Part shown: positions 19,095 to 36,637 of the stretch, one piece after another
How the letters are laid out: each line of letters begins with the position of its first letter
Numbering within the stretch: position 1 is the stretch's first letter
Source of the DNA: Betaproteobacteria bacterium RIFCSPLOWO2_02_FULL_63_19
GTDB lineage: Bacteria > Pseudomonadota > Gammaproteobacteria > Burkholderiales > SG8-39
Assembly: GCA_001770415.1 (NCBI GenBank)
Contig: MEQX01000107.1
Span: 17,251-81,250 of the forward strand
Direction of reading: 5' to 3'
Length of the DNA stretch: 64,000 bases
Made by a program: the position numbers and the translations under genes
Notes under the pieces: generated by a model
What the model saw: only the letters and a program-made list of their open reading frames with translations
What the model was told of the DNA's origin: nothing
Database searches by the model: none

Positions 19095-19184
19095 CGGGAT
19101 ATCTCCTCTGTTTGGCAAGGCCGGTATTCCAGCAAAGGCATATGACCACACGCCCGATAATGCTATAGCAATCGCCCCCCGCAT

Positions 19185-20492
19185 TCAATTCATCAGACCC
19201 GGCAGATAGAGGCTGATCTGGGGAAAGGCGATCAACAGCGTCACTACCACCACCTCGGTCGCCAGAAACCACGATACGCCCCTGAAGATGGTTTCGAGGG
19301 GGACCTCCTTGCCGACGATGGTCTTGACCGCGTACACGCACAGCCCGACCGGAGGCGTCATCAGGCCGATCTCGATGTATTTGATCACCAGGACGCCGAA
19401 CCAGATGAGATCGAGGTCGAGCGCCTCGAACATCGGCAGCAGTACCGGCAGCGTAAGCAGCATCAATCCCAGCGGATCGAGGAACATGCCGAGAACCACG
19501 TAGATGAGCGACGCGCCGATGACCAGGAGAAGCGGATCCAGCGCAATATCCTGCATCGCCGCGGTTAGATAGATGGGCAACGCGCTGAGGACCATGAACT
19601 TGGTCAGCAGAATGGCGCCGACCGCGATGAAGAAGATAGTCGCGGTGTTTTCGGTGGCTTCCAGCAAACTGGTCTTGAACACCTCCCATGTCATCTGCCT
19701 CTTCAGCACGGCGACGACGAACGCAAGAAACGAACCCAGGGCGCCCGCCTCCGTCGGCGTCACGATGCCCGTGTAGATGCCCCCCATGACGCCCAGGATA
19801 AGGACCGGCAGCGGCCAGATATTCAGCAGCGCAGCGCGCTTTTCCGCCCTGCTGACCTGCTCGACGAACCGCGGCGCCAGCCCCGGGTTGATCTTGCAGC
19901 GTATGACGATCATCCCGCCGTAGAGGACCGCCGTGAGCACCCCGGGAAGAATGCCGGCGATGAACAGCTTGGATATCGATTGTTCGGCGAACACCCCGTA
20001 AAGAACGAACAGTATGCTGGGCGGAATGAGCGATCCGAGGGTCCCGGCGCACGCGCAGACCCCCGTCGCCAGGCCGGGATCGTATTTGTATCGCTGCATT
20101 TCGGGTATCGCGATGCGCCCCATTGCGACGGCCGTGGCGAGCGAGGATCCGGACGCCGCGGCAAACACGGCGCAGGCGAAATTGGTGGCCACCGCCAGCC
20201 CGCCCGGCAGAAAGCCGAGCCACAGCCGCGCCGCGCGGTAGAGCGAATTGGTCATTCCCGAGTGATAGGCGAAGGTCCCCATCAGAAGAAACATCGGGAT
20301 CGCCGACAGGCTCCAATGCGCCGAGAAATCGTAGGGAAGCGAACCGATCATGCCGAACGCCGCATCGAGGCCGATGATCTCGACGGTGCCGACGAAGGCC
20401 ACCGCGCCGAGCGCCAAGCCGATCGGCACCCGCGCCGCGATCAGCACCAGGATGACGACGATTCCGAAAGTACCGACGGCAATGCTGGACAA
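19185..20492 (-). CDS. dctM: TRAP transporter large permease (system A)
   Basis: A 435-residue DctM protein with about 12 hydrophobic segments. Family landmarks include IPMFLLMGTFAYHSGMT, ATAVAMGRIAIPEM, IPPSILFVLYGVF and the C-terminal MTPPVGLCVYAVK with FPQISLYLPGLMN. The start is TTG 20492: a very strong GGGGGAG stands three bases before it and no better ATG exists nearby. It couples tightly to dctQ (23-base gap). The C-terminus is closely similar to the truncated dctM stump at 52696-52881, more so than to the dctM genes of systems B and C. Confidence 0.92.
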   Translation of the reverse strand: MSSIAVGTFGIVVILVLIAARVPIGLALGAVAFVGTVEIIGLDAAFGMIGSLPYDFSAHWSLSAIPMFLLMGTFAYHSGMTNSLYRAARLWLGFLPGGLAVATNFACAVFAAASGSSLATAVAMGRIAIPEMQRYKYDPGLATGVCACAGTLGSLIPPSILFVLYGVFAEQSISKLFIAGILPGVLTAVLYGGMIVIRCKINPGLAPRFVEQVSRAEKRAALLNIWPLPVLILGVMGGIYTGIVTPTEAGALGSFLAFVVAVLKRQMTWEVFKTSLLEATENTATIFFIAVGAILLTKFMVLSALPIYLTAAMQDIALDPLLLVIGASLIYVVLGMFLDPLGLMLLTLPVLLPMFEALDLDLIWFGVLVIKYIEIGLMTPPVGLCVYAVKTIVGKEVPLETIFRGVSWFLATEVVVVTLLIAFPQISLYLPGLMN

Positions 20493-20515
20493 CGTCTCCC
20501 CCTAGGCGCGCTCAG

Positions 20516-21034
20516 TCACGCATCACGGGAACCATCACGAAGCGAGGCCAGCGCGGCCATGCTCCGGATGGTCTGGAGCAGCGCATAGATCCCCATGACC
20601 GCGAAACCGATCGGCAGGAACCACCTTCCCGGCCAGATGTAGACGAAGATCTTCATGGCCTCCAGGTGCTCCATTTCGACTGATTTATGGTAGGCCTCGA
20701 TTCCGGTACGCCAGGTGAACAGGGCGACATAGACGATCATCAGTATGCCGGTCGCGGTATCCAGGATCAGGCGCGGGCGTTGTCTCAAATTCTGCGTAAA
20801 TAGTTCCGCCACGATATGCGAGTTGTTGCGTTGGATGTAGGCCAGCGGCAGGTAAATGAGGCCGACCATGTAGTAGTGGGCGACGATTTCCATCGTGCCG
20901 TCCAACGGAGAACTGAACAGATAGCGACCCGAGACGTCGAGAACGACGTGGACAGTCATCAGGACAAGCGTCGACGCTGCGGCGAATACGAGAACGTTGG
21001 TAAAACCCGCCAAGAATCGACTGAACCGCGTCAT
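20516..21034 (-). CDS. dctQ: TRAP transporter small permease (system A)
   Basis: A 172-residue DctQ protein with four hydrophobic segments (LVFAAASTLVLMTVHVVLDV, YYMVGLIYLPLAYI, ILMIVYVALFTW, FLPIGFAVMGIYALL). The ATG at 21034 is supported by GGGGGAG upstream and overlaps the stop of the Mo-hydroxylase gene by four bases (ATGA), so the two are translationally coupled. It forms the membrane complex with the DctM encoded next. Confidence 0.9.
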   Translation of the reverse strand: MTRFSRFLAGFTNVLVFAAASTLVLMTVHVVLDVSGRYLFSSPLDGTMEIVAHYYMVGLIYLPLAYIQRNNSHIVAELFTQNLRQRPRLILDTATGILMIVYVALFTWRTGIEAYHKSVEMEHLEAMKIFVYIWPGRWFLPIGFAVMGIYALLQTIRSMAALASLRDGSRDA

Positions 21035-23397
21035 GCACTCCCCCCGGTCGAACGCCTGCGCGCGTGGATCGCGCGCCACACGCGGTCGGGCGTAGCTGGC
21101 ATGTCCAGCCGCGTAATGCCGAGCGGCGCGAGCGCATCGAGGATGGCATTCATCATCGTCGCCAGAGAACCCGTGGTGCCCGCCTCGCCACCGCCTTTGA
21201 CGCCGAGCGGGTTGCCCTGCGTGATGACCTCGTTGCTTTCCACTATGAATGACGGGAAACCGTCGGCGCGCGGCATGCCGTAATCCATGAACGTGCCGGC
21301 GAGAATCTGCCCGTGCTCGTCCTGCACGACGTGCTCCGAGAGCACCTGGCCCACGCCCTGAACGATGCCGCCGTGCGCCTGCCCGTGTACGATCAGCGGA
21401 TTGACCATGCGGCCGACGTCGTCCACACAGGCATAGCCCACGATCTCGATCACGCCGGTCTCGGGATCGATTTCGACTTCGGCGACGGCACAGCCGTTGG
21501 GATAGGCCGGAATGCGCCCGACGAATTTAGCATCGCCCGAAAGCGGACCGCCAAGTTCCTCGGGAACCTTGCCCTGTACCGCCGCGCGCGCGGCCTCGAA
21601 CAGGGTCACCGTGCGGTCGGTCCCGCTGACGGTAAAGCGCCCCGGGCGACCCGAGTCATTTTCGAACTGGATATCGCTTGGCGCCGCCTCCAGCAGATGC
21701 GCGGCGATCTTCTTGCCCTTTTCGATGATCTGCTCCGAGGCGCCGACCATGACGAAACCGCCGAGCCTCAGCGACCGGTCCGAATGCGTGCCGCCGCCCT
21801 CCAAGACGATATCCGAATCCCCGGTGATGATGTTGACGTCTTCGCTGGGCACGCCGAGCCATGATTCGATCACCTGGGCGAAACTGGTTTCATGTCCCTG
21901 CCCTCCCGATTGGGTGCCGATAATCACGTCGATCTTGTCCGCATCGGTGCGCACCAGGACCTGCGATCGCTCAATCGGTGCGCCAACCGGAGTCTCGATG
22001 TAATTGGCGAGCCCGATTCCGCGCAACTTGCCGCGGCGCTTGGCCTGCTCGCGGCGCGCGGGGAATCCGCTCCAATCGGCCAATTCCCTGCAGCGATCCA
22101 TGTTCTTTTCGAATTCGCCGCAGTCGTAGGTCAGTCCGCCGGGGGTCGTGTGCGGAAAGGCGCCGATCAGGTTGCGCCGACGCAACTCGATGCGGTCGAT
22201 GCCCATCTTCGCGGCGGCAAGGTCGATCAGCCTTTCCATCGCCAGCATCGCCTGCGGCCGGCCCGCGCCGCGGTAGTTCACCGAAGGCAGCGTGTTGGAA
22301 AGTATGCCGTAGACGCGTAGCGCCAGGCGCGGCGTCTTGTAGACCGTCGTCGCGATGCGCGAGCCGTTGACCGGCGGAACATAGGACACGCAATTGCCGC
22401 CGCAATTCGAATAGAGCGTCTCCCGCAGCGCCAGGAACCTGCCATCGCTGTCGAGCGCGAGCGCGGCATCGATCACCACGTCACGCGCCTGATAATCGGA
22501 GAGGAACGCCTCGGACCGGTCGCTCGTCCACTTGACCGGACGGCCGAGCTTCTTCGCGGCCCACATCGCAAGCAGGTACTCCGGATACAGGTGCGAGCGC
22601 GGACCGAAGCCGCCCCCCGTGTCGCCGGTGACCACGTGCACATTGGAGGGGTCGCACGAGAAGACGATCGCTGCATTCGTCTTCAGCCGGTGCACGCCCT
22701 GCGAACCGACTTCGATGTGGTAGCGCCCCTCGCGCGTGTACTCGGCGACGCAGGCGCGCGGTTCCATCTGCGCGTTGGCGACGCGGTTGAATCGAAACTC
22801 CTCTTCGACCACGAATGCGGCCGTACGGAATGCCTCCTCGGCCGCTGCGCAGTCGCCGTTTTCGCCCTCGAACGCGATATTGCCCGGGAGTTCGTCCCAG
22901 ACGGTGGGCGCGTCCGGCTTCATCGCGTCCTGGCCGCGGATCACTGCCGGCAGCACATCGTATTCGACGTCGATCAACTCCGCGGCGTCGCGTGCGCGAT
23001 GCGCCGTATCGGCGACCACCCAGGCCACGATCTCGCCGATGTGATGCACCTTGTCGCGCACCAGCGGGATGTTCGGCGCCGCAAATGCCGCGCTGCCGTC
23101 GCCCCGGGTAAAGCACGGGACTCTCCAGTCCTCCGGCTTGACCGTCATCGGCCCGTGCGGAATCCCCTTGAGTCCGTCGGCTGCGTAGTCTTCCCCAGTC
23201 AGCACAGCGAGCACCGCGGGAGCAGCCTTTGCAGCCGTGACGTCGATACGTTTCAGCCGTGCGTGCGCATGGGGCGCGCGCAGCGCGTAGGCGTAGACCT
23301 GATCGTCAAGCCGGACGTCGCCTGCGTAGCGCCCCGCCCCCGTCAACAACCTTCCGTCTTCGCGGCGCGGCAGATGCGCCCCAATTCCAGTGTCCAC
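21031..23397 (-). CDS. Xanthine dehydrogenase family molybdenum-binding subunit (form II CoxL-like), lone large subunit
   Basis: A 788-residue Mo-hydroxylase large subunit. Landmarks are RREDGRLLTGAGRYAGD at the N-terminus, TGGGFGPRS (about 260-268), the active-site loop NYRGAGRPQAM, which is the form II signature and not the CO dehydrogenase AYxCSFR, and the catalytic glutamate in VKGGGEAGTTG (Glu about 738). GTG 23397 is chosen over the TTG at 23442 because GGGAGG lies just before it. Such subunits normally work with a 2Fe-2S and a FAD subunit, neither of which is adjacent here; instead dctQ follows with a four-base overlap. Partners may come from elsewhere or from the 41668-43067 genes. 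Confidence 0.87.
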   Translation of the reverse strand: MDTGIGAHLPRREDGRLLTGAGRYAGDVRLDDQVYAYALRAPHAHARLKRIDVTAAKAAPAVLAVLTGEDYAADGLKGIPHGPMTVKPEDWRVPCFTRGDGSAAFAAPNIPLVRDKVHHIGEIVAWVVADTAHRARDAAELIDVEYDVLPAVIRGQDAMKPDAPTVWDELPGNIAFEGENGDCAAAEEAFRTAAFVVEEEFRFNRVANAQMEPRACVAEYTREGRYHIEVGSQGVHRLKTNAAIVFSCDPSNVHVVTGDTGGGFGPRSHLYPEYLLAMWAAKKLGRPVKWTSDRSEAFLSDYQARDVVIDAALALDSDGRFLALRETLYSNCGGNCVSYVPPVNGSRIATTVYKTPRLALRVYGILSNTLPSVNYRGAGRPQAMLAMERLIDLAAAKMGIDRIELRRRNLIGAFPHTTPGGLTYDCGEFEKNMDRCRELADWSGFPARREQAKRRGKLRGIGLANYIETPVGAPIERSQVLVRTDADKIDVIIGTQSGGQGHETSFAQVIESWLGVPSEDVNIITGDSDIVLEGGGTHSDRSLRLGGFVMVGASEQIIEKGKKIAAHLLEAAPSDIQFENDSGRPGRFTVSGTDRTVTLFEAARAAVQGKVPEELGGPLSGDAKFVGRIPAYPNGCAVAEVEIDPETGVIEIVGYACVDDVGRMVNPLIVHGQAHGGIVQGVGQVLSEHVVQDEHGQILAGTFMDYGMPRADGFPSFIVESNEVITQGNPLGVKGGGEAGTTGSLATMMNAILDALAPLGITRLDMPATPDRVWRAIHARRRSTGGSA

Positions 23398-23809
23398 GAT
23401 GGCCCTCCCGATTGATCCAGTACTGCCCGCCGCCAGTGCCAACCCCGCCCGTCATTGCGCCGCCATCGACACTCGCTAAACGGCTCTGTGCGGCCTCGCT
23501 GCCCGCCGCGATGCGGATCGCAACCGGTCGCGGCTCAGCGAAACCCGACGAGAGCCTCGGCGGGCACTGAGTGGAGCTGTCGGCAGATTATATTGGAATT
23601 AGGTGCGACGGCTGCTTGCCCCCTCGCGAATTGACGTGGTAATTTCCCCCACAGCAGAGGGACCTGCCATAAGCGTCGGCTGACAAGGCCCCGATAAGAA
23701 GAAATGAACGTGTCGCGCAAGGCAGTCTGTGCGCGGCCGGTGCCGATGCACGGCGCGGACCGGCTCTTTGACTCGGTGCGTTGCTATTCGTCCCAATAGA
23801 GGAGGAGTC
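23398..23809 (+). other. Divergent intergenic region, no gene seen
   Basis: This 412-base gap separates the minus-strand Mo-hydroxylase/TRAP A operon from the plus-strand TRAP B operon and should carry promoters for both. I see no convincing coding signal, no long inverted repeat and no complete -35/-10 pair. An AT-rich spot (TATATT at 23589-23594) stands out against the high-GC background. Confidence 0.4.
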
Positions 23810-24832
23810 ATGTTCACCAAGACGCCTTATAGGTTGGTCGGTGCCGGTTGCCTCGTAGCCGCGCTGCTGAGCGCCCCAGCGGTTTCCCTAGGTGCAGAAG
23901 TCATCAAATTCGGCATGTTCACCCCGCCTAAGACGACGCTGATGGTTAAGGGGCTCATCCCGTTTCTCGAACAGGTTTCCAAGGAAAGCGAAGGGGCGTT
24001 CAAGTACAAGGGGTTCTGGGGCGGCTCGATCATGCGCAATCCCGCGAAGCAGTACGAAGTGCTGATCGCGGGTCTGCAGGACGGCGCGATGATACTGCCG
24101 AGCTACACGCAGGCGCTGTTTCCCGATTTTTCGCTGTTCGCCCTGCCTAATCTGTTCCGGAGCGGCGAGGAGGCCTCGATCGCGATGTGGCGCTTGCACG
24201 AGAAAGGCCTGCTCGGCGGGCTGGACAAGATGCACGTCATGGCGATCTTCTCGAACGGCAACAGCGCGTTTCACGTCTCCAAGAAGCTCGTTTCGGTAGA
24301 AGACCTTAAGGGACTCAAGATACGCTCGGCGGGGCCGGAAGAAGCCGACGTCATCAAGGCGATGGGCGCGGTACCGGTGGGCATGAGCATCAATCAGGTC
24401 GCTGAAGGGGTCAGCCGCGGTGTCGTGGATGGCACGCTTTCAGGCTGGGAAGCCATACGCTCGTTTCGCATCGAGCCGCTGATCGTCTCGAGCGTCGACA
24501 TGAACTTCGGCACGCGCTCGCTGATGCTCGTGCTCAACCGCAAAGTCTACGATCGTCTGCCGCAGCAGGCGAAGGATGCGCTGGCGAAGTACGAGGGCGA
24601 GAAGCTGAGCCGCAAGATCGGGAAGAACTACGACGATGCCAACGAGAAGGTCATTAGTAGGGCCATCAAGAATCCGAAGAAGAACATCGTCCATGGAGAC
24701 AAGGCGACGCTCGCGAGGGTGGCAAAGATGTTCAAGCCGTTTCACGAGGCCTGGATCAAGGCGCATAAGGACGGCCAGAAGAAATACGATGCGCTGCAGC
24801 AGATCCTCGCCGAGTTGCGCAAAGGTAGCTGA
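23810..24832 (+). CDS. dctP: TRAP transporter periplasmic binding protein (system B)
   Basis: A 340-residue DctP-family protein. ATG 23810 follows the strong site GGAGGAG; the signal peptide core is LVGAGCLVAALLSAPAVSLG. The mature part carries IKFGMFTPPKTTLMVKG, QDGAMILPSYTQALFPDFS and the arginine motif DLKGLKIRSAGPEEADVIK. These segments are shared with the two binding proteins at 28782 and 33750, so B, C and the solitary copy belong to one subfamily. dctQ follows after 27 bases, dctM after that, then a UbiD decarboxylase, which suggests the imported substrate is an aromatic carboxylate. Confidence 0.92.
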   Translation: MFTKTPYRLVGAGCLVAALLSAPAVSLGAEVIKFGMFTPPKTTLMVKGLIPFLEQVSKESEGAFKYKGFWGGSIMRNPAKQYEVLIAGLQDGAMILPSYTQALFPDFSLFALPNLFRSGEEASIAMWRLHEKGLLGGLDKMHVMAIFSNGNSAFHVSKKLVSVEDLKGLKIRSAGPEEADVIKAMGAVPVGMSINQVAEGVSRGVVDGTLSGWEAIRSFRIEPLIVSSVDMNFGTRSLMLVLNRKVYDRLPQQAKDALAKYEGEKLSRKIGKNYDDANEKVISRAIKNPKKNIVHGDKATLARVAKMFKPFHEAWIKAHKDGQKKYDALQQILAELRKGS

Positions 24833-24859
24833 GAACGGAATAAGCGCAAGCGGCGAGCG

Positions 24860-25405
24860 GTGAAGGTCTTCGATTCCGGGAAACTGCTCGCCCGGCCGAG
24901 CACCGCCGTTGCGCTGCTCGGCGCAGCGGGCGTATTGCTGGTCGCGCTGGCCGTGATCACCGACGTGCTCATGAGGTGGCTGTTCAATCTGCCTATTCTG
25001 GCCGTCGATGACCTAGGCCGCTACGTCATGGCCGTCGTGGTGTCGAGTTTCTTTCCGGCAGGCCTGGCGCGCGACCAGTTCGTCACCATCCGTTTTCTTG
25101 GCAAAGGGCTCGGTGTGCGCGCGAGACTCTGGCTCGATTGTTTCGGCGCAATCGCCACGCTGCTCGCGTTCGCGATATTCGCATGGCGCATATTCGACTA
25201 CGCCATCGAGGTATCGCGGAGCGGACTCGCCACCACGGTCCTCGAACTGCCGCAGGGACCCTGGTGGTGGCTGGTGGCGACCTTATTCGCAGTTTGCGTT
25301 CCGATCCAGGTGGTGGTAGTGATCGAACGCCTCGCCCGGGCGATCAGCGGTGCGCCTCCGGACGCGGCGGCCGGTGGCGAGCAGCAGGCCGAATCGGTCG
25401 CCTGA
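24860..25405 (+). CDS. dctQ: TRAP transporter small permease (system B)
   Basis: A 181-residue DctQ protein with four hydrophobic segments and the motif VVVSSFFPAGLARDQFVTIR, shared with the system C small permease. The start is GTG 24860 with only a weak ribosome site. It sits between dctP and dctM with short gaps and completes the TRAP membrane complex. Confidence 0.9.
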   Translation: MKVFDSGKLLARPSTAVALLGAAGVLLVALAVITDVLMRWLFNLPILAVDDLGRYVMAVVVSSFFPAGLARDQFVTIRFLGKGLGVRARLWLDCFGAIATLLAFAIFAWRIFDYAIEVSRSGLATTVLELPQGPWWWLVATLFAVCVPIQVVVVIERLARAISGAPPDAAAGGEQQAESVA

Positions 25406-25433
25406 CGGGCAGTCGCAACACTATGCCGTGAAC

Positions 25434-26747
25434 ATGGATCCCACGTTACTCGCGATCATCGGCATCGCCGGCATGCTCGCGCTGATCGCGATGCACGTAC
25501 CGATCGGTATCGCGATGGCGCTCGCCGGGCTCGCTGGCGTCGCGTACATGGAGGGCCTGGACACCGCGCTCGCGATGTTCTCGGCCGCGCCCACCAACGT
25601 GCTGACCAATCCCGAGTTGGCCGCCATTCCGATGTTCCTGCTCATGGGAAGCTTCGCCGCGGCCGCCGGCCTATCGCGCGACCTCTACCGGCTGTTTCAC
25701 GCGCTGATGGGCCATTATCGCGGAGGCCTCGCGATGGCGACCATCGGCGGGTGCGGCGGTTTCGGTGCGGTGTGCGGCTCCTCGATCGCGACCGCCGCCA
25801 CCTTCGTGCGTATTGCGCTGCCTGAGATGCGCGCGCGCGGCTACGCGCCGACGCTCTCGACCGGATGCATTGCCGCGGGCGGGACGCTCGGCATCCTGAT
25901 ACCACCGTCCAATCTGATGCTTCTGTACGGCGTGCTCACGGAACAGTTCGTCATCGCGCTGTTCACCGCCGCTGTCGTTCCCGGACTGCTGTCGATATTG
26001 ATCTACCTCATCGCGATTGGCATCGTCGTGCGTGTCCGGCCCAGCCTCGGCCCGGCCGGACCGCGCATGCCCTGGAGCGAGCGCCTTGTGGTCGCGCGCG
26101 AGTGCTGGGGCGTATTGACGCTCGCCACCGTGGTGAGCGGGGGTATTTATGGCGGTATCTTCACAGTGCTCGAAGCAGCCGCGGTCGGGAGCATTTTCGC
26201 GTTTCTGTTCGCGCTGTTCCGGGGCGTATTGACGCGCAAGGTGACGCGACAGGTACTCGCTGATACTGCGGCGAGTACCGGGCTCATCTACGTGATCATC
26301 TTCGGCGCCAATATCTTCACCTTCTTCATCACCCTCACCCAGATGCCAGACATCCTGGTACGCAATATTGAGGCGCTGAACCTGGCTCCCTGGGCGGTAA
26401 TATTTGTGCTGATGGTCATTTACATCATATTGGGATGCATCTTCGAGACGGTTTCGGCGATGATCATCACGCTGCCCGTCGTGTTCCCGCTGATCGTGGG
26501 ACTTGGATTCGACCCGATCTGGTGGGGCGTGATCAACATCATGGTGATCGAGATCGGGCAGACCACGCCGCCAATCGGCATTATTCCGTTCGTGCTGCAC
26601 GGGATGGCGCCCGATGTGCCGCTGAAAACGATATTCACGGGCATCATTCCTTTCTTCGTCGCCGACCTGATTCGGCTTGCCATCGTTGCAACGCTGCCGA
26701 TTCTTGCTCTATGGCTGCCGGGAAAACTGGGATTACTGATTGGCTGA
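25434..26747 (+). CDS. dctM: TRAP transporter large permease (system B)
   Basis: A 437-residue DctM protein with about 12 hydrophobic segments. It carries IPMFLLMGSFAAAAGLSRDL, LIPPSNLMLLYGVLTEQ, VFPLIVGLGFDPIWWG and the C-terminal IGQTTPPIGIIPFVLHGM, all nearly repeated in system C. ATG 25434 begins with MDPTLLAIIG, matching the system C protein MDPILIAILG, which decides against the longer open frame starting at 25350. A UbiD gene follows after 215 bases on the same strand. Confidence 0.92.
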   Translation: MDPTLLAIIGIAGMLALIAMHVPIGIAMALAGLAGVAYMEGLDTALAMFSAAPTNVLTNPELAAIPMFLLMGSFAAAAGLSRDLYRLFHALMGHYRGGLAMATIGGCGGFGAVCGSSIATAATFVRIALPEMRARGYAPTLSTGCIAAGGTLGILIPPSNLMLLYGVLTEQFVIALFTAAVVPGLLSILIYLIAIGIVVRVRPSLGPAGPRMPWSERLVVARECWGVLTLATVVSGGIYGGIFTVLEAAAVGSIFAFLFALFRGVLTRKVTRQVLADTAASTGLIYVIIFGANIFTFFITLTQMPDILVRNIEALNLAPWAVIFVLMVIYIILGCIFETVSAMIITLPVVFPLIVGLGFDPIWWGVINIMVIEIGQTTPPIGIIPFVLHGMAPDVPLKTIFTGIIPFFVADLIRLAIVATLPILALWLPGKLGLLIG

Positions 26748-26962
26748 AGAGGAAGACCCAGGATGGCCGCTTCCGCAATCCGTGTGCACGCCGAACAGGA
26801 AGTCGGGGCGTGCTGGCAACATCTGTTACGCTGGGCTCCATCAGTCCGCGGCGCGAACGAACTTGTATCGAATGGGAACTGACCAGGCCCGATGATTCAT
26901 GACGCGAAGTCACCGCAGCGGAAACCGCGGTACCGGCAAACCAGGCATAGGAGGACATTGAC

Positions 26963-28573
26963 ATGGGAAAGATGAGTGCTGCTGCGACAAAGATCGATCT
27001 GGAGAAATTCCGGCTGCGCCGGTTCGTCGAGCGGATGGTCGAGATGGGCGAGATGGATGTTCGCGACGAGCCCGTTGCGCTCACGCGCCTATCCGAGATC
27101 ATCGAGGGCACCCCGAAGGGCGTGCTGTTCCGCAAAGCCGGCCCGGAGCAGGTCGAAATCGCTGCGAAGGTATTGGGGGGGCGAGCGCGTATCGCCGCCG
27201 CTTTCGACACCACTGTCGACAAGTTCGGCGACGAATACCACAAGCGCATGGCCACGCCGCAGGAGGTCGTCGAGATCCCGTCCGGCGACGCACCGGTGCA
27301 TGAAGTCGTGATGACCGGCAAGGACGTTGATTTGACGAAGCTTCCATTCCATCCGCAGCACGAATTCGACGGCAGCTGCTATCTCTCATCAGGTATCGAC
27401 TACACCATTGATCCGGAAACCGGGCGCACCAATGTCGGCAGCCGGCGCCTGTCATTGCGCAATCGCAACACGACCGGCACCAACGTCACCGCCCCCTCGG
27501 ACCTGAAGCGCATCTACCAGGGCTGCGTCAAGCGGGGCGAGAAGCTGCCGATCACCTTCACTATAGGCAGCCACCCGCTGGACATGTTCGCGGCCACCTC
27601 GCGCAGGCCCGGCGACGAGATCAGCCTCGTCGCCCAGTTTCGCGGCGAACCGGCGGCGGTCGTCAAGAGCATTACCAACGACATCCTGGTTCCGGCCGAC
27701 GCGGAAGCGACCCTGGAAGGGTATCTGGACGAGAATGGCTACGTCGAGCTCGAGGGGCCCTTCGGCGAGTTTTTCGGCTACTACGGCGCAATCCACAAGG
27801 ACCCGGTATTCCACTGCACGGCCATCACCATGCGGCGCGACGCGATGTACCAGACGCTGCTGCACGGGTCGGCATTCTCCCTGGATCAAAGCGACGGGGC
27901 GGTGATGAGCGCGATGCGCACCGAAGCCGAAGCGATGAAGATTCTGCGCGCGACCGTGCGCGAGCCGATCGCCGTGCATATGCGCGAAACCTCGGGCGGG
28001 TCGTGCACCCTGCTCGTGTCCATGCGCCAGCGCATCGTGGGCGAGGCGCGCAGCGCGATTGCCGCGCTGTTCGGCGGCATGCTGCGCCTGAAGCACATCA
28101 TGGTGTTCGACGAGGATATCGACGTCTTCAACGACAAGCAGGTCGGGTGGGCGTTAGGCACGCGCTTCCAGGCGGACCGGGACCTGATCGTGCTGCAGGG
28201 CATGATGGGCATGTCCCAGGACCCCTCGCTCGACGGGCGGCGAACCGGCGCCAAGGCGGGTTTCGACTGCACCCGGCCATTCGGATGCGACGGACAGATT
28301 CCGTTCACCCGCTGCGCCGCCAAGGTCTTCAAGCCGTCTGCCAAGTTCAAGTCGGTCGAGGAGGCACTCCGGTCCGAACCGATGTATTACGCGCAGATCG
28401 TCGAAGCGCTCGGCAGCGACGACGGCCGCGATGTTGCCTGCGCACTGGATGAATTGCGCCAGGCCGGAGGACTTGGGCGCGACCGCGACGGGCGCTACCA
28501 CCTGATGTCCGCGAAGCCCGGCACCACTGGGATCGTCGGGGAGCTGTATCACGATCCGAACGTGGGCACTTAA
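26963..28573 (+). CDS. UbiD family decarboxylase (paired with TRAP B)
   Basis: A 536-residue prenylated-FMN-dependent decarboxylase. Key residues known from fungal Fdc1 are all recognisable: the Asn/Arg pair in TNVGSRRLSL (equivalents of Asn168 and Arg173) and the two glutamates in LEGPFGEFFGYYG (Glu277 and Glu282 equivalents). The C-terminal domain and the RFQADRDLIVLQG segment are normal for the family. ATG 26963 follows TAGGAGG at good distance. Position behind TRAP system B suggests that it decarboxylates the imported acid or its CoA ester. It is of the same subgroup as the UbiD at 35099. UbiX is not in the window. Confidence 0.92.
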   Translation: MGKMSAAATKIDLEKFRLRRFVERMVEMGEMDVRDEPVALTRLSEIIEGTPKGVLFRKAGPEQVEIAAKVLGGRARIAAAFDTTVDKFGDEYHKRMATPQEVVEIPSGDAPVHEVVMTGKDVDLTKLPFHPQHEFDGSCYLSSGIDYTIDPETGRTNVGSRRLSLRNRNTTGTNVTAPSDLKRIYQGCVKRGEKLPITFTIGSHPLDMFAATSRRPGDEISLVAQFRGEPAAVVKSITNDILVPADAEATLEGYLDENGYVELEGPFGEFFGYYGAIHKDPVFHCTAITMRRDAMYQTLLHGSAFSLDQSDGAVMSAMRTEAEAMKILRATVREPIAVHMRETSGGSCTLLVSMRQRIVGEARSAIAALFGGMLRLKHIMVFDEDIDVFNDKQVGWALGTRFQADRDLIVLQGMMGMSQDPSLDGRRTGAKAGFDCTRPFGCDGQIPFTRCAAKVFKPSAKFKSVEEALRSEPMYYAQIVEALGSDDGRDVACALDELRQAGGLGRDRDGRYHLMSAKPGTTGIVGELYHDPNVGT

Positions 28574-28601
28574 GCGCCGGAGCGGTTAATCAGTGCGCTG
28601 T

Positions 28602-28638
28602 GCGTCCCTATCACCCGGCCATCATCCCCAACACCGTC
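28602..28638 (-). pseudogene. Stump of a dctM 3-prime end
   Basis: These 37 bases match the end of the intact system C dctM plus its immediate downstream sequence (31818-31854) at all but two positions. On the minus strand they still read T-V-L-G-M-M-A-G followed by TGA (stop at 28611-28613). The match stops exactly at 28638, where an IS630-type transposase fragment begins. This is the remaining tail of a deleted dctM that once followed the dctP at 28782. Confidence 0.75.
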
Positions 28639-28779
28639 TTTTTCGTCCTTGCTGGGCACGAACTCATCGGGGCGCAGGCCCTGCCACTGCTTGGCGTACA
28701 GATCGAGGATGCGAGCGGCCTAGATTGCGAAATCCGGGTCGCGCGGGAAGATCCACGTGCGGTGCCACAAGGAGCGAAT
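28639..28779 (-). pseudogene. IS630-family transposase fragment
   Basis: In one minus-strand frame about 47 codons translate to a typical internal part of an IS630-type DDE transposase: WHRTWIFPRDPDFAI, then an in-frame TAG stop at 28720-28722, then AARILDLYAKQWQGLRP and DEFVPSKDEK. The DEK segment holds the second catalytic acidic position region of these enzymes. Both ends of the element are missing: the fragment starts against the stop codon of the dctP gene and ends abruptly at the dctM stump. I assign the family from recall of the pattern; a database search would confirm it. Confidence 0.65.
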
Positions 28780-28781
28780 GC

Positions 28782-29798
28782 TTAGATGCCCTTGCGGTAT
28801 TCGGCGATGAACCGCCGGAGGGCTTGGTACTTCTTCGCTCCGTCCTTCGTTTTCGCGATCCATTCATCGTGGAAGGGATGGAACTTCTTGGCCTGCACCG
28901 CAATTTGCTCATCCGTAAGGGTGAACACGACTCGATTGGGATCTTCTCGTGCCCGTCTGCGCAATTGATCGCCCTCTTCCTGATTGAGCCGTCCCAGTCG
29001 GCGGCTTAGGGAGAGGCCGCTGTTCTTGTTGAGGGCCTGTTTGGCCTTGGCCGGCAGAACATCATAGACCTTCTTGGTAATTCCAATGAAGAATCCGCGG
29101 ACGCCGAACGGGTAATCGATATGAGTCCGGACCAGCGGCATGATCTTGAACGCATCGAGGGCCTGCCAGCCGGCCAGAGTGCCCTGAATAACGCCGCTGC
29201 TGAGCGACTGGGCGATCTGCGTGATAGACATCCCGACCGGAATTCCGCCCATCGCCTTGATCATCGCCGACTCTCCGGGGCCGGCCGCGCGCACCTTCAA
29301 GCCCCTCATCGCCTCCACCGAGGCGAGCTTTTCCCTGAAATGCATGCCGCCGTTGTCGTTGGTGTAGACGGTCGCGACATAGACCTTGTCCAGGCCCCTC
29401 AGAAGTCCGGCGTCGTACATTTTCCAGCCGACGTATGAGGCTTCCTCGGCGTCCCTGAACAGGAAGGGAAGTGCGAACAGGGAAAAATCTGGGAACAGCT
29501 TGGCGGTATAGCTGGGCAGGATGGGCGAGGCATCCTGGATGCCGTTCATCATCCCCTCGAACTGCTTTCTCGGGCTGCGGATGAGTTGGCCGCCCCAGAA
29601 TTCCTTGAACACGAGCGTTCCCCCGGAATCCTTTTCCACCTGCCTCATCCATTTCTTGTACTCCAGAACCGAGCGGATATTCGCCGGTGCGTGCGATCCC
29701 ATCCTGATGAAGGCCTGCGCCGAAACCTCACCCGCCGAAAAGGTCAGACCCGCGCCTATCATGCCGACGCACGCAATGAATGCCATTGACTTACGCAT
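28782..29798 (-). CDS. dctP: TRAP transporter periplasmic binding protein, solitary duplicate
   Basis: A 338-residue DctP-family protein with signal peptide (MRKSMAFIACVGMIGAGLTF, cleavage near VSAQA). It has IRSPRKQFEGMMNGIQDASP, SYTAKLFPDFSLFALP and the arginine motif RGLKVRAAGPGESAMIKAM. ATG 29798 is preceded by GGAGAC. The protein is alignable without gaps to the system C binding protein at 33750-34766 and most residues are identical. It no longer has its own dctQ and dctM; the next minus-strand sequence is a transposase fragment joined to a dctM stump. It could serve the system C membrane proteins with a changed specificity. Confidence 0.9.
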   Translation of the reverse strand: MRKSMAFIACVGMIGAGLTFSAGEVSAQAFIRMGSHAPANIRSVLEYKKWMRQVEKDSGGTLVFKEFWGGQLIRSPRKQFEGMMNGIQDASPILPSYTAKLFPDFSLFALPFLFRDAEEASYVGWKMYDAGLLRGLDKVYVATVYTNDNGGMHFREKLASVEAMRGLKVRAAGPGESAMIKAMGGIPVGMSITQIAQSLSSGVIQGTLAGWQALDAFKIMPLVRTHIDYPFGVRGFFIGITKKVYDVLPAKAKQALNKNSGLSLSRRLGRLNQEEGDQLRRRAREDPNRVVFTLTDEQIAVQAKKFHPFHDEWIAKTKDGAKKYQALRRFIAEYRKGI

Positions 29799-29954
29799 TT
29801 GCTGTCTCCTCCGGAATCTACGGTTGAAAGATTCGTGACTCACACAATGCTCGTCGCTATCCACGTCTTAACGGTCGTACTTGGCAGACCGTAAAGAACC
29901 CGGGGCCCGACCAAACGAGCTTACGCTGCACAGGAATGATGATCAACCCGGTGT
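28782..29954 (-). repeat. Duplicated dctP unit, copy 1
   Basis: From the dctP stop codon to 156 bases upstream of its start, this unit pairs with 33750-34922. Both are 1173 bases, so there is no net insertion or deletion. Conserved upstream blocks include CTACGGTTGAAAGATTCGTG, AGAACCCGGGGCCCG (from 29896) and AATGATGATCAACCCGGTGT (29935-29954), each at the same distance from the start codon as in copy 2. Conservation of the leader suggests a shared promoter or operator. Confidence 0.8.
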
Positions 29955-30087
29955 GCGGAGCTCACAGCGACACATTCCAAAAGGACAAAAACCAACCGGA
30001 CCCCAAAGCAAGGATGACCCGGGGCACGCCCCGATCCGGCCGGTGAACATGTCCCGCTCCAACGGCGCCCGGAACTTCAAGCGCGCG

Positions 30088-31779
30088 CTATCCGTGACCG
30101 GGAACGACCGGCAGGAGCAAGTGCGACGGAAATTCGGGTTTGTGATAGATCGTGTGCCGCGTTTCGCGGCTCGCCGAGAGGTGGTTCGACAGCCGGTAAA
30201 TGTAACTCGTGCCCTCCCAGGGCGCGTCCTGCGCTTTCACCACGAGTTGCAGCCGGTGAGCGGCTTTGAAGACATAAGACGTATCACAAATCTCGATCGC
30301 ATACTCGTAGACCCTTCCCGGGTCGACGGGAATGGCGCCGGTATGAGGGTGATAAGGCTTGTAGGGCTTCGATCGGCTTTGATCGAGTTCCCGGTGTGAG
30401 GCCTTGAGCCAGCCGATCGAGACTCTCGTCTCCGTCCCGTCCGCATCGACGTCGTTGATCTCGACGATCCAGTTCGTATCCGCGCTGCTGATCGCGGCGA
30501 ACAGGTACAGCGCAATCGGGCCAGTAACCTCGGTATCCGCGGCAAGCGCTTCGGTCGCGTATCTGAGCGAGGGCACCTTTCCTCCGGGCTGCAGCCCGAC
30601 CGCGTTGGTGAACCCGTCTGGCCGCTCATTCCACCCGGGCAATTCATCTTTCAACCGGCCCTGGGCGCCCAGATACAGTCTTGTCCAGTGGGTTCTCGCC
30701 AGCGGCCACTCGTTTTCGTGACGCCATTGATTCGATCCCTGCACCAGGATCGTTATGGGCGGTTCGTCCATGACGCCGGTATCGATGCCCTTCAGCCAGT
30801 GGTCATACCATCTCAATACGATATCGTGATTTTCATGCCACGGACGGCTGAAACCGACTCCGGATTCCGGCACCGTGATCATCAGCTTCCTGGGCGCGTT
30901 GATCTGGCCGTACGCGCTGAACGCGCCCGGCAGATGAATATACGGCGCGCTCCAGCGCGAAAGCAGGTGGCACGGAATATTGATCTTGCCGAACTTGCTG
31001 CAGGCGGACCTCTCCCAGTAGTAGGGTCCGTCGAAGGGATGGATCAGCACGTCGAACAAATGCGGATTCTTCTGCGGCCACCTCAGCGTCTTGTACAGCC
31101 TCGGATGGCACCTGACGTCCGGGTCATCCAGCAGGTTCTCGACGATCGCCTTCAATTCCGCCGGGGGAAGATCTGCCCGCTTGGCGCTGTTGACGACCAG
31201 GCTCGAATCCCACCAGGTCGCGAGGAACGACAGGTGCAAAATGCCGCCGTGATACGCCCAGTGGCGGTACATGTCGGTTGCGGCATCGACCGGGAAAATG
31301 GCTTTCAGGTGCGGCGGGTTCTGGGCGGCGACCAGCAGCTGGATCATGCCGAAATACGACATCCCGAGCATGCCGACGTTGCCGTCGCACCATGGCTGCT
31401 TCGCGATCCATTCCACGAGGTCGTAGCCGTCCTGCTGCTCCTTGCCAGTGAATACGCCGTAGCTTCCTTCCGATGCTCCGGTGCCTCGGGCCTCCGCGAT
31501 GACGTGCGCGTAGCCGCGGGAGACGAAATATTCGGTGTCCCCCGCTTCGATCCCGCCGTTGCCGAGGTCCCTGTCGGTGGGATATTCGAAGATCGGAAGC
31601 TTCTGCACGTCCTTCCCATAGGGGGAAATGCCAAGCAATGCGGGAACCTTGACGTTTGCGTCCGGACGATAAATGTCCACGGCAACGCGCACTCCGTCGC
31701 GCATGCCGACGAAAACATCCTTTTCGGTATTCACCCGGTGCTGCGGTCGCGATACCAGTTCGTGCCAGTCCTTGTTCAT
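30088..31779 (-). CDS. CocE/NonD family hydrolase
   Basis: A 563-residue alpha/beta hydrolase of the X-Pro dipeptidyl-peptidase/cocaine esterase family. The nucleophile elbow is LGMSYFGMIQL (Ser near 128), preceded by the family's DxRGTGASEG element in IAEARGTGASEGS; the C-terminal half is the jelly-roll XPP domain (VTGPIALYLFAAISSADTN). ATG 31779 follows GGAGGAG; the frame is open further upstream but only as a shadow of dctM. It lies 47 bases behind dctM of system C and is probably co-transcribed with it. Likely activity is hydrolysis of an ester or amide; no signal peptide is seen, so it acts on imported substrate. Confidence 0.88.
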   Translation of the reverse strand: MNKDWHELVSRPQHRVNTEKDVFVGMRDGVRVAVDIYRPDANVKVPALLGISPYGKDVQKLPIFEYPTDRDLGNGGIEAGDTEYFVSRGYAHVIAEARGTGASEGSYGVFTGKEQQDGYDLVEWIAKQPWCDGNVGMLGMSYFGMIQLLVAAQNPPHLKAIFPVDAATDMYRHWAYHGGILHLSFLATWWDSSLVVNSAKRADLPPAELKAIVENLLDDPDVRCHPRLYKTLRWPQKNPHLFDVLIHPFDGPYYWERSACSKFGKINIPCHLLSRWSAPYIHLPGAFSAYGQINAPRKLMITVPESGVGFSRPWHENHDIVLRWYDHWLKGIDTGVMDEPPITILVQGSNQWRHENEWPLARTHWTRLYLGAQGRLKDELPGWNERPDGFTNAVGLQPGGKVPSLRYATEALAADTEVTGPIALYLFAAISSADTNWIVEINDVDADGTETRVSIGWLKASHRELDQSRSKPYKPYHPHTGAIPVDPGRVYEYAIEICDTSYVFKAAHRLQLVVKAQDAPWEGTSYIYRLSNHLSASRETRHTIYHKPEFPSHLLLPVVPGHG

Positions 31780-31826
31780 CGCTCCTCCGGTACCAGTGAT
31801 CTGCAAGGGTGCCGCGCGCGTCCCCA

Positions 31827-33140
31827 TCACTCGGCCATCATCCCCAACACCGTCGGCAACCACAACGCAAGGATGGGGAACAGCGCGATGATCGTCAGTC
31901 GCGTCAGGTCCGCGAAAAAGAACGGGATGATGCCGATGAAAATCGTCTTCAACGATATGTCCGGTCTCATTCCGTGCAGCACGAACGGGATGATGCCGAT
32001 CGGCGGTGTGGTCTGGCCGATTTCGATGACCATGATATTGATGACTCCCCACCAGATCGGGTCGAAGCCCAGGCCGACGATCAACGGAAAGACGACGGGC
32101 AGCGTGATGATCATCGCGGCTACGGTTTCGAATATGCTGCCCAGGATGATGTACATCACCAGCAGCACGAAGATGACCATCCCCGGCGACAGACCCGCCG
32201 CCTGGATCTGCCTCACCAGAAGATCCGGCATCTGCGTGAGGGTGATGAAGAAGGTGAAAATGCTGGCGCCGAAGATGATGATGTAGATCAGCCCGGTGGT
32301 AGCAGCGGTTTCCGAGAGCACCCTGGCCATCACCCCGCGGGTCAACCGGCCTCTGAAATAGGCGAAAAAAAACGCGAAAATGCAGCCGACCGCCGCCGCC
32401 TCGAGTATGGTAAACAGTCCGCCGTAGATGCCGCCGCTGACCACGATGGCAAGGGTCACCACGCCCCAACAGTCCCGGGCCACCCGCGCTCGCTCGCGCC
32501 AGGGTATGCGCGGCCCCGGCGGACCGGAGTCCGGCCTGAATCGGACGTACAGCGCCACCGTAACGAAATAGATGGCCAGGCAGATGAGCCCGGGTATGAC
32601 GGCGGCGGCAAACAGCGCGACGACGAACTGCTCCGTAAGCACCGCATAGAGCACCATCAGGTTCGACGGCGGGATCAGAATGCCCAGCGTACCACCAGCG
32701 GCGATGCAGCCCGCCGCGAGGCTCGGGCGGTAGCGGCGCTCGAGCATCTCCGGCAAAGCGATACGCATGAACGTCGATGCGGTCGCCAGCGAGGATCCGC
32801 ACACCGCACCGAACCCGCCGCAGCCGCCGATGGTCGCCATGGCGAGGCCGCCGCGGTAATGGCCGACCAGCGCATGGAACAGGCGGTAGAGATCGCCCGA
32901 CAATCCGGCGGCCGCGGCGAAACTGCCCATCAGCAGGAACATCGGGATGGCCCCGAGCGTCTGGGTGGTCAACACCTGCGTCGGCGCGGTGGCGAACATC
33001 TTGATCGCGGGTCCCGGACCGAGCAGCGCCGAGACGCCGAAGAATCCGGCGATCGCCATCGCAATGCCGATCGGAAAATGCAGCGCGATCAGCAGCAGCA
33101 TGCCGCAGATTCCGAGTATCGCGATGAGTATTGGGTCCAT
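31827..33140 (-). CDS. dctM: TRAP transporter large permease (system C)
   Basis: A 437-residue DctM protein of the same length and subgroup as system B (IPMFLLMGSFAAAAGLSGDL, IPPSNLMVLYAVLTEQ, VFPLIVGLGFDPIWWG, IGQTTPPIGIIPFVLHGM). About 12 hydrophobic segments. ATG 33140 lacks an obvious ribosome site, as does the system B gene. It lies between dctQ and the CocE-type hydrolase. Its last codons and downstream bases are repeated as a stump at 28602-28638. Confidence 0.92.
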   Translation of the reverse strand: MDPILIAILGICGMLLLIALHFPIGIAMAIAGFFGVSALLGPGPAIKMFATAPTQVLTTQTLGAIPMFLLMGSFAAAAGLSGDLYRLFHALVGHYRGGLAMATIGGCGGFGAVCGSSLATASTFMRIALPEMLERRYRPSLAAGCIAAGGTLGILIPPSNLMVLYAVLTEQFVVALFAAAVIPGLICLAIYFVTVALYVRFRPDSGPPGPRIPWRERARVARDCWGVVTLAIVVSGGIYGGLFTILEAAAVGCIFAFFFAYFRGRLTRGVMARVLSETAATTGLIYIIIFGASIFTFFITLTQMPDLLVRQIQAAGLSPGMVIFVLLVMYIILGSIFETVAAMIITLPVVFPLIVGLGFDPIWWGVINIMVIEIGQTTPPIGIIPFVLHGMRPDISLKTIFIGIIPFFFADLTRLTIIALFPILALWLPTVLGMMAE

Positions 33141-33171
33141 GTCAGTGCGTCGTCGGTGCGCGATGGCGCGG

Positions 33172-33723
33172 TTAGCCGCCCGTCTCCGCCCCCTTGCCCT
33201 CGCGCGCCTCGTAGGCCGGTTGACGGCCTTTGACGGCGCGAACCACGGCGTCGATCAGCACCGCGGCCTGAAGAGGCACGCAGATCACGATCACCGCGGT
33301 GACCACCCACCACCAGGGCGCCTGCGGCAGTTCGAGCACCGTGGTCGCAAGCCCCGTGAGCGTGACGTCGTAGAGCGTGAAGCGGAAGAATTGCCACGCC
33401 AGAAGGACGAAGACGAACAGCGTGCCGGTCCCCCCCGCCACCTCCAGCCAGCACCCTGCGCGCGCGCCCAGTGCCTTGCCCAGAAACCGGATGGTCACGA
33501 AGTGCCCGCCGACCAGACCGACCGGGAAAAAGCTCGATACGACGACCGCCAACATGAGGGTGTTGAGGTCATCGACGCCGATAATGGGGGAGTTGAACAG
33601 CCACCGCATCAGCACGTCGACCGTCATCGCCGCGGCGATCAGCATGATGCCGATGGCGCCGACGAGCGCGATCCGGTTCGTCAGGGGGCCGAGCAGCCTC
33701 CGGGCGTCGAACGGCATCCTCAT
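33172..33723 (-). CDS. dctQ: TRAP transporter small permease (system C)
   Basis: A 183-residue DctQ protein with four hydrophobic segments; VVVSSFFPVGLVGGHFVTIR and GLATTVLELPQAPWWW are nearly identical to the system B protein. ATG 33723 lies 26 bases after the dctP stop. A second in-frame ATG is two codons further in. It completes TRAP system C with the flanking genes. Confidence 0.9.
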   Translation of the reverse strand: MRMPFDARRLLGPLTNRIALVGAIGIMLIAAAMTVDVLMRWLFNSPIIGVDDLNTLMLAVVVSSFFPVGLVGGHFVTIRFLGKALGARAGCWLEVAGGTGTLFVFVLLAWQFFRFTLYDVTLTGLATTVLELPQAPWWWVVTAVIVICVPLQAAVLIDAVVRAVKGRQPAYEAREGKGAETGG

Positions 33724-33749
33724 GTCACGGTCCGCACGGGCCGTGGGCC

Positions 33750-34766
33750 TTACTTACCTTTGCGGTATCCCGCGATCAACCCTTGGAGGGCCTGGTACTT
33801 CTTCGCTCCGTCCTTCGTTTTCGCGATCCATTCATCGTGGAAGTGCTGGAACTTCTTGGCCTGCACCGCAATTTGCTCATCCGTAAGGGTGAACACGACA
33901 CGATTGGGATCTTCTCCGGCCCTTTTGCGCAGCCTGTCGCCCACGCCCTGGTTGCTTCGGCCCAGCCGACGGCTTTCGGTAAGACCACTGTTCTTGTCGA
34001 TGGCCTGCTTGGCCTTCTCCGGAAGAGCGTCATAGACCGTCTTGGTGATCCCCAGGAAGAATGAGCGGACGCCGAACGGGTAATCGATATGGGTGCGAAT
34101 CAGCGGCATGATCTTGAACGGTACCAGAGCCGACCAGCCCGCCAGCGTGCCCTGGATGACGCCGCTGTTGAGCGACTGGGCGACCTGAGTGATACCCATT
34201 CCGACCGGAACGCCGCCCATCGCCTTGACGATCGCTGACTCGCCGGGACCGGCCGCGCGCACCTTCAAGCCCCTCATGGCCTCGACCGAGGCGAGCTTCT
34301 CCGTAAAATGCATGCCGCCATTGTCGTTGGTGTAGACCGCCGCGACATAGACCTTGTCCAGACCCCTCAGAAGTCCGGCCTCGTACATCTTCCATGAGAC
34401 GTACGAGGATTCCTCCGCGTCCTTGAACAGAAATGGCAGCGTGAACACCGAGAAATCCGGGAACAGCTTGGCGGTATAGCTGGGCAATATGGGCGAGGCA
34501 TCCTGGATGCCATTCATCATTCCCTCGAACTGCTTTCTCGGGCTGCGGATGAGTTGGCCGCCCCAGAATTCCTTGAACACGAGGGTCCCCCCGGCATCTT
34601 TTTCCACCCGACTCATCCATTTCTTAACTTGTCGAACCGGATGGCCGTTCGGCGGCGAGTGCGATCCTATCCTGAGGACGGCCTGCGCCGACGCCTCACC
34701 CGCCGAGAAGGCCAGACCGGCGCCGATCACGCAGACACCCGCAATGCTTGCCAATGATTTGCGCAT
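33750..34766 (-). CDS. dctP: TRAP transporter periplasmic binding protein (system C)
   Basis: A 338-residue DctP-family protein with signal peptide (MRKSLASIAGVCVIGAGLAF, cleavage near ASAQA) and the motif RGLKVRAAGPGESAIVKAM. ATG 34766 has GGAGAC upstream; the open frame continues 46 codons further but into the leader that is conserved as non-coding sequence in copy 1. It is the near twin of the gene at 28782. Differences cluster in the first 25 mature residues and in the C-terminal helices, regions that may alter substrate or membrane-partner recognition. Confidence 0.92.
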   Translation of the reverse strand: MRKSLASIAGVCVIGAGLAFSAGEASAQAVLRIGSHSPPNGHPVRQVKKWMSRVEKDAGGTLVFKEFWGGQLIRSPRKQFEGMMNGIQDASPILPSYTAKLFPDFSVFTLPFLFKDAEESSYVSWKMYEAGLLRGLDKVYVAAVYTNDNGGMHFTEKLASVEAMRGLKVRAAGPGESAIVKAMGGVPVGMGITQVAQSLNSGVIQGTLAGWSALVPFKIMPLIRTHIDYPFGVRSFFLGITKTVYDALPEKAKQAIDKNSGLTESRRLGRSNQGVGDRLRKRAGEDPNRVVFTLTDEQIAVQAKKFQHFHDEWIAKTKDGAKKYQALQGLIAGYRKGK

Positions 34767-34922
34767 TTGCAGTCTCCTCCGGAATCTACGGTTGAAAGAT
34801 TCGTGAACCATGCAACATTCGTCGGTATCTACGCTTACAAGGTCGTTTCTGGCGGACCGTGAAGAACCCGGGGCCCGGGTTGACAACCTTACCCTGCGCA
34901 GCAATGATGATCAACCCGGTGT
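33750..34922 (-). repeat. Duplicated dctP unit, copy 2
   Basis: Partner of 28782-29954, equal in length (1173 bases) and colinear through gene and leader. This copy keeps the downstream dctQ, dctM and hydrolase genes, so it is probably the parental arrangement. Confidence 0.8.
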
Positions 34923-35098
34923 CCGTGATTCGCAATGAGACTCATCCGCAAGCGATAAGAGATCCATCGGCCCCCAAGCCGGGAAGGGCCGCCGATGCGC
35001 TGCGATCAGACGTTTGAACTTGCAGGGAATCGCGCACGGTGAAGCGCCGATCGCGCCGCGCCGCGCGGCCAGAAGCAGGGAAACCGCTCGGGTTTCGC
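34767..35098 (-). promoter_or_regulatory. Leader of the TRAP C operon with a 15-base palindrome
   Basis: A 332-base gap between the UbiD stop and dctP. It contains a perfect palindrome ACCCGGGGCCCGGGT at 34866-34880, 100 bases upstream of the dctP start; copy 1 keeps its left two thirds at the same distance. A second conserved block, AATGATGATCAACCCGGTGT (34903-34922), includes the small palindrome TGATCA. These are candidate operator sites for a regulator that controls both dctP copies. No gene is seen in the gap and no convincing minus-strand -35/-10 pair could be picked out. Confidence 0.4.
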
Positions 35099-36637
35099 TC
35101 AGACGGCAGCTGAATTCAAGAGCATATAACGGCCATCGCTCTTGTCCCGATCGAGCACGCCATCACCGCCCAGCGCCTCCAGTTCGAGGACGATTTCACG
35201 CCCGTCGTCGGTGCCGGTGGCAGCCATCAGTTCCTCGAAATACTTCGGCCCGCTGGCGAGGGCCTCGCGCACCGACGCATAGCGCTTTCCTTCATACCGG
35301 GCGGGTTCCGGCACGGTCGACTCGAGCCGGCCCGCCGAACCGAACTGCAGCGTCAGATCGAAGCCCGCCTTCGCGCCGACGCTCGCACCGTACAGTGACG
35401 GGTCGAGCGGCAAGGTGCGGAATCCGCTCTGCACCACCAGATCGCGGTCGGGCTGGAACCGCGTTCCGAGCGCCCAATCCATCTGCTCGTCGGAAAAAAT
35501 ATCGATGTCCGGATCGACGACGAACACGTTCTTGACGTTGGCCGCCGAGCCGAAGGTCGCAGCGATCGCGTTGCGCGCCTCGCCCGGCACCCGCTGGCGC
35601 ATCGCGATGCGCACGTTATAGACGCCACCGGTCGCCGTCGAAGCGCTCACTGCGATCGGCTCGCGGATCGCGGTCTGCAGCGCCCGCCAGACCAGCATCT
35701 CGGTCCTCAATCCACACAACTGCGCCGTGTCGGTGCGGCTCATCGTGCGGCCGCTGATCGACAAGGTCTGGAAAATCGCGTCACGGCGCCGCGTGATCGC
35801 TGTGACGCGAAACACCGGATTGGTCTTGACGCCGCCGTAGTAGCCGAGGAACTCACCAAAGGGACCTTCGGGTTCTGCGTAGCCCTTCGCGTCGAGATAG
35901 CCTTCAATCACCCATTCGGCGTCGGCCGGAACCCGGATATCGTTTGTGATCCCCTTGACCACCGGCAGCGGCGCGCCCCGCAGCGATGACAGCAGTCCGA
36001 GTTCGTCCACCGGCAAGCGCATGGTCGCGCCAAAGTAGTCGATCGGGTGAGCGCCGACCACGACGCTCAACGGCAGCGATTCGCGCCGTTCGAGACTGGC
36101 CATTAGGATCGCGCGCAGGTCGCTCGGGGCGACGAGATCGACGCCCGTTTCGGCGCGACCGCGGAGCATCAGCCGCCGCAGCCCGACGTTGGTCCAGCCG
36201 TTCGCTTTGTCGATCGTGAAATCCATCGCGCCGGAAATGTAGAGCCCGCCGTCGCATCCATGCTGGAGATGGACCGGCAGCTTGGTGAGGTCCGCATCGG
36301 CGCCGCTCGATACCATCCGCTGCACCGGCGCGTCGTCGCGGTGAACCTCGACGAGTTCGGGCCTGTTCTGCAGACGCGAGAGCACCTCGGGCAGCAGTGT
36401 GCGCGGCGTAACCCCGAAAGCGTGCGCCATTCGCGCGCGGCTGCCCATCACGTTGCCGGCGAGCGGGACACGCTCCGCACCGGCCTGCCGGAACAGCACC
36501 GCCTTCGCGTTGCCCTCCAGAATGCCGCCGACATCGGCGAGCTTCGTCGCTTCTTCGCGAACCTCGATCTCGCCGAGCGACGCCAGGCCGCCGAGGAAAG
36601 TCTTCAGCCGGAAGCGATCGTAGTCCAAACTGGCCAC
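35099..36637 (-). CDS. UbiD family decarboxylase (next to TRAP C)
   Basis: A 512-residue prFMN-dependent decarboxylase of the same subgroup as the one at 26963. Conserved positions are the Asn/Arg pair in TNVGLRRLML and the glutamates in PEGPFGEFLGYYGG. The start is GTG 36637 with AGGAG five bases ahead; it shares one base with the stop codon of the upstream Bug gene, so the two are translationally coupled. Upstream genes in the same direction are acyl-CoA ligase, enoyl-CoA hydratase and MaoC hydratase; downstream is TRAP system C. Likely role is decarboxylation of an aromatic or enoyl carboxylate. Confidence 0.92.
   Translation of the reverse strand: MASLDYDRFRLKTFLGGLASLGEIEVREEATKLADVGGILEGNAKAVLFRQAGAERVPLAGNVMGSRARMAHAFGVTPRTLLPEVLSRLQNRPELVEVHRDDAPVQRMVSSGADADLTKLPVHLQHGCDGGLYISGAMDFTIDKANGWTNVGLRRLMLRGRAETGVDLVAPSDLRAILMASLERRESLPLSVVVGAHPIDYFGATMRLPVDELGLLSSLRGAPLPVVKGITNDIRVPADAEWVIEGYLDAKGYAEPEGPFGEFLGYYGGVKTNPVFRVTAITRRRDAIFQTLSISGRTMSRTDTAQLCGLRTEMLVWRALQTAIREPIAVSASTATGGVYNVRIAMRQRVPGEARNAIAATFGSAANVKNVFVVDPDIDIFSDEQMDWALGTRFQPDRDLVVQSGFRTLPLDPSLYGASVGAKAGFDLTLQFGSAGRLESTVPEPARYEGKRYASVREALASGPKYFEELMAATGTDDGREIVLELEALGGDGVLDRDKSDGRYMLLNSAAV

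Follow-up and report, generated by a model that had tools for sequence, protein, structure and literature searches.

The closest described binding proteins are of two kinds. TarP, an aromatic-acid binder of Rhodopseudomonas palustris, is a TRAP binding protein, and redundancy among aromatic-acid uptake systems has been described (PMC3610893). Orphan binding proteins have precedents too, above all in the related TTT family, with Bug/TctC of Bordetella as the example (PMC5812351). The locus described here resembles the latter in that a binding-protein gene stands without adjacent permease genes. However, the Bug/TctC proteins belong to PF03401 and are massively expanded, whereas here we see a single TRAP-type case in which the remains of the lost permease are visible. 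With TarP and other PF03480 proteins the orphan shares the profile and a conserved arginine (R170 here), a likeness at family level only; it differs from TarP-type DctP systems in lacking its own dctQM.

The locus lies in a stretch of 64,000 nucleotides, referred to as the window, from a 4.65-Mb betaproteobacterial genome assembled in 116 contigs. The order on the minus strand is UbiD-family decarboxylase, dctP, dctQ, dctM, CocE/NonD hydrolase, second dctP, transposase piece and dctM end, with the following features:

28602–28638, minus strand: relic of dctM, comprising the last 8 codons and stop (TVLGMMAG*) and 9 bp downstream; matches 31818–31854.
28636–28779, minus strand: internal piece of an IS630 transposase, terminating just past the first catalytic Asp (DEK); identified by a tblastn match to the Polaromonas JS666 IS630 and by DNA match to an intact IS of a same-genus genome, G001.
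28782–29798, minus strand: orphan dctP (copy 1), a TRAP solute-binding protein of 338 aa; PF03480, intact open reading frame.
29799–29957, minus strand: leader of the orphan dctP, homologous to the leader of the complete operon and carrying the ribosome-binding-site-like GGAGGAGA; within the 1,177-bp alignment.
30088–31779, minus strand: CocE/NonD-family hydrolase, sited between the two TRAP copies; TIGR00976, 331 bits (cut-off 66).
31827–33140, minus strand: dctM belonging to system C, the complete operon; PF06808, 275 bits.
33172–33723, minus strand: dctQ of system C; PF04290, 48 bits.
33750–34766, minus strand: dctP of system C, copy 2; PF03480, 93.8 bits.
34767–34925, minus strand: system C leader, shown by DNA alignment to be a homologue of the orphan's leader.
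36637–35099, minus strand: UbiD-family decarboxylase, by family profile.

The complete dctPQM of system C spans 34766–31827 on the minus strand. A search with Rfam gave no RNA element in 28500–35150. Two related TRAP operons of the window, at 23729–28573 and 31827–36637, face in opposite orientation and differ in gene order; their dctM products are 76% identical, and each operon includes a UbiD-family decarboxylase. A third TRAP system (B; 18159–21079, minus strand), with dctQ and dctM ahead of dctP, adjoins a molybdenum hydroxylase gene.

In a pairwise DNA alignment, the two dctP units (28781–29957 and 33749–34925) are 1,177 bp each and 84.5% identical, a leader of ∼160 bp included. The coding parts, both of 1,017 bp, align without any indel and specify proteins with 82% identity (277/338); the only gaps are two compensating ones in the leaders. 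Over the ∼40 bp preceding the start codon (29799–29838 and 34767–34806) the copies differ at a single position, fewer than in the remaining leader, and this stretch is possibly a regulatory or translational element. A promoter scan of the copy 1 leader recognised no promoter upstream of the orphan. Homology resumes at the dctM end, where 35 of 37 positions are identical (E 3e-10 in the window, 1.5e-9 genome-wide); no other significant match to this tail was found across the 4.65-Mb genome. Since the operon leader and the end of dctM are both represented, in the correct order and on the correct strand, neither chance nor the copying of dctP by itself would account for the resemblance, although the dctM part of this evidence is only 37 bp long, which counts against the explanation we favour. 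A derivation of the tail from TRAP system A (25350–26747) was rejected, as the end of system A gives no DNA match.

Apart from this 37-bp end, dctQ and dctM are missing near copy 1, and the piece between copy 1 and the dctM tail, when compared with dctQM of the complete operon, scored no higher than shuffled sequence. The preliminary description had proposed that the operon was duplicated, with dctP units and leaders aligning without net indels, and that dctQ and almost all of dctM were then lost to leave an orphan binding protein; all of these points are borne out.

The sequence between dctP and the dctM tail runs from ∼28779 to 28636 (144 bp) and corresponds to a middle section of an IS630-family transposase. 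Its reading frame, SIRSLWHRTWIFPRDPDFAI*AARILDLYAKQWQGLRPDEFVPSKDEK, contains one in-frame stop (TAG) and small indels. A tblastn comparison with the Polaromonas JS666 IS630 transposase gave 64% protein identity over all 51 residues (E 1e-12), and the Dietzia transposase gave 59% (E 3e-11). An intact element in G001 is 1,282 bp long with 39-bp terminal inverted repeats and a transposase frame carrying DDE_3; it matches the piece with 73% DNA identity (E 1.5e-18; protein E 3e-16). The piece, about 50 residues and short, reached no Pfam or NCBIfam profile on its own. Relative to the G001 element it covers positions ∼532–678, about a tenth of the length; both ends of the element, with the terminal inverted repeats, are absent, and the DDE triad is incomplete, with the first Asp (DEK) only. 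Thus, while the piece has the internal transposase sequence of the family up to that residue, its small size, lack of ends and internal stop codon mean that it cannot be active. Judged from its sequence, it is a true IS630 relic, inactive and with both ends lost. No further significant copy of the element was detected in the genome. The genome's only DDE_3 (IS630-like) profile match lies on contig C56 (48050–48388, locus L050), in an open frame of 147 aa with part of the domain.

The matches to transposases confirm the IS630 origin given in the preliminary description, and the piece does meet the last codons of dctM as stated there. The exact joint placed at 28638/28639, however, cannot be kept, because the triplet GAC (28636–28638) is common to the IS piece and the dctM tail and leaves the joint ambiguous over 3 bp. 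One or two bases overlap at the left joint. Duplication, loss of dctQM and an IS630-derived piece were all upheld, but since both ends of the IS are gone, a single insertion followed by one adjacent deletion, as proposed, does not suffice. The microhomology at the joints points to end-joining, and two or more deletions, or else a single filler event, would be needed.

The orphan reading frame is open. By the Nei–Gojobori method, dN against copy 2 is 0.10 and dS 0.44, a ratio of ∼0.23, although such a ratio between two copies cannot alone assign constraint to copy 1 and some divergence may be hidden by gene conversion. When the outgroup is the protein of system A or that of G001, unique changes in copies 1 and 2 number 11 and 15 or 11 and 12, indicating no excess rate in copy 1. 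Taken together, the open frame, the low ratio and the equal rates fit continued constraint on both copies, and the orphan is probably not decaying but maintained. Divergence is unevenly distributed along the gene. Codons 285–324 (28827–28946 and 33795–33914) show 3 differences in 120 bp, compared with 150 in 894 elsewhere (0/300 permutations as extreme), and identical synonymous codons are clustered (permutation p ∼0.001). From this tract and the clustering, gene conversion appears the likeliest source of the near-identical 3′ stretch. Amino-acid changes, on the other hand, are concentrated in residues 30–47, where 11 of 18 differ (again 0/300 permutations as extreme).

The history that we consider probable as a whole begins with duplication of the entire dctPQM operon in the same orientation, together with the leader and several bases beyond dctM, as homology at both ends shows. 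One copy then lost dctQ, along with the whole of dctM except its final 8 codons, and the 144-bp internal IS630 piece now occupies their place. Most likely an IS630 element inserted into the QM part and was subsequently trimmed by deletions on both sides, with end-joining, which would account for the loss of both IS ends and the 1–3 bp of microhomology. The remaining dctP, intact and, as far as the pair of copies can tell, constrained, most likely encodes a second binding protein which, if it works, would do so through the adjacent, closely related system C permease. The same missing ends and microhomology are also expected if IS630 never inserted here and a dctQM deletion was repaired by end-joining with a transposase scrap from elsewhere. 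One event would then explain the whole structure, but the genome holds no source copy of the element, and an IS that inserts and is then followed by deletion at its flank is a frequent route; we regard such a capture as unlikely. Still harder to favour is the separate acquisition of two related operons in place of duplication. The dS of ∼0.44 is not recent and a third operon related to them (A) sits close by in the opposite orientation, yet each dctP copy has the other as its closest relative found (82% identity versus 46% or less), and the two stand 5 kb apart in the same orientation. An assembly error behind the arrangement is possible. The searches turned up no relative with this locus, and none with an intact second operon or an intermediate; beyond this genome the closest DctP is ∼40% identical. 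Two scans of the genome collection returned a single distant relative, a betaproteobacterial MAG with intact dctPQM, and a plasmid search only relatives of ∼30%.

The orphan could alternatively be a functionless leftover in which gene conversion has maintained the likeness to its twin. The low-divergence tract at codons 285–324 and the clustered synonymous codons are what this would produce, but no frameshift or stop has arisen despite the dS, over most of the gene replacement changes are much less frequent than synonymous ones, and both copies evolve at equal rates, so that we find this reading doubtful.

Assignment of the orphan to the DctP family is clear (PF03480, 95.3 bits against a gathering score of 23.4), and with the cognate dctQ and dctM absent beside it, it is an orphan of that family and not a complete TRAP system. 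Among the 34 DctP genes of the genome, most lie no more than a few kb from a gene of the DctM family, as judged by eye from the lists; leaving aside genes at contig ends, the orphan and one gene on contig C64 clearly depart from this. The latter (C64:8280–9110) has no DctM-family match on its contig.

R170 of the orphan is invariant among four relatives and lies within a GLKVRAAGP motif. It would correspond, by motif and not by structure, to Arg147 of SiaP, the conserved arginine of TRAP binding proteins, which has a carboxylate-binding role (PMC3610893). The neighbouring UbiD-family decarboxylase genes suggest an aromatic carboxylate as substrate, as in TarP-type binders. Asn10 of Haemophilus SiaP contacts the ligand (PMC4089482), and the changed N-terminal segment of the orphan (residues 30–47) corresponds by position, and by analogy only, to the segment containing Asn10 and may line the pocket; a structure prediction for DctP1 from three sequences had a mean pLDDT of 34.7, too low to support any conclusion. 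It is plausible that the orphan acts as an alternative receptor for the adjacent system C permease and may widen its range, and the constraint, together with the clustering of changes in a possibly pocket-lining segment, gives this indirect support. A more specific proposal, which we offer tentatively and think less likely to be right than wrong, is that changes in the N-terminal part of the pocket shifted the ligand range of this second receptor while conversion keeps the C-terminal part matched to the system C binding protein, one TRAP permease serving two.

The arrangement is a well-preserved case of ordinary operon duplication and decay, and the orphan receptor left by it is probably maintained. 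It provides a readable example of how an orphan binding protein originates, since remains of both the lost permease and the mobile element can still be seen. Provided that the orphan is in use, it would be a test of whether two binding proteins can share a single TRAP permease.
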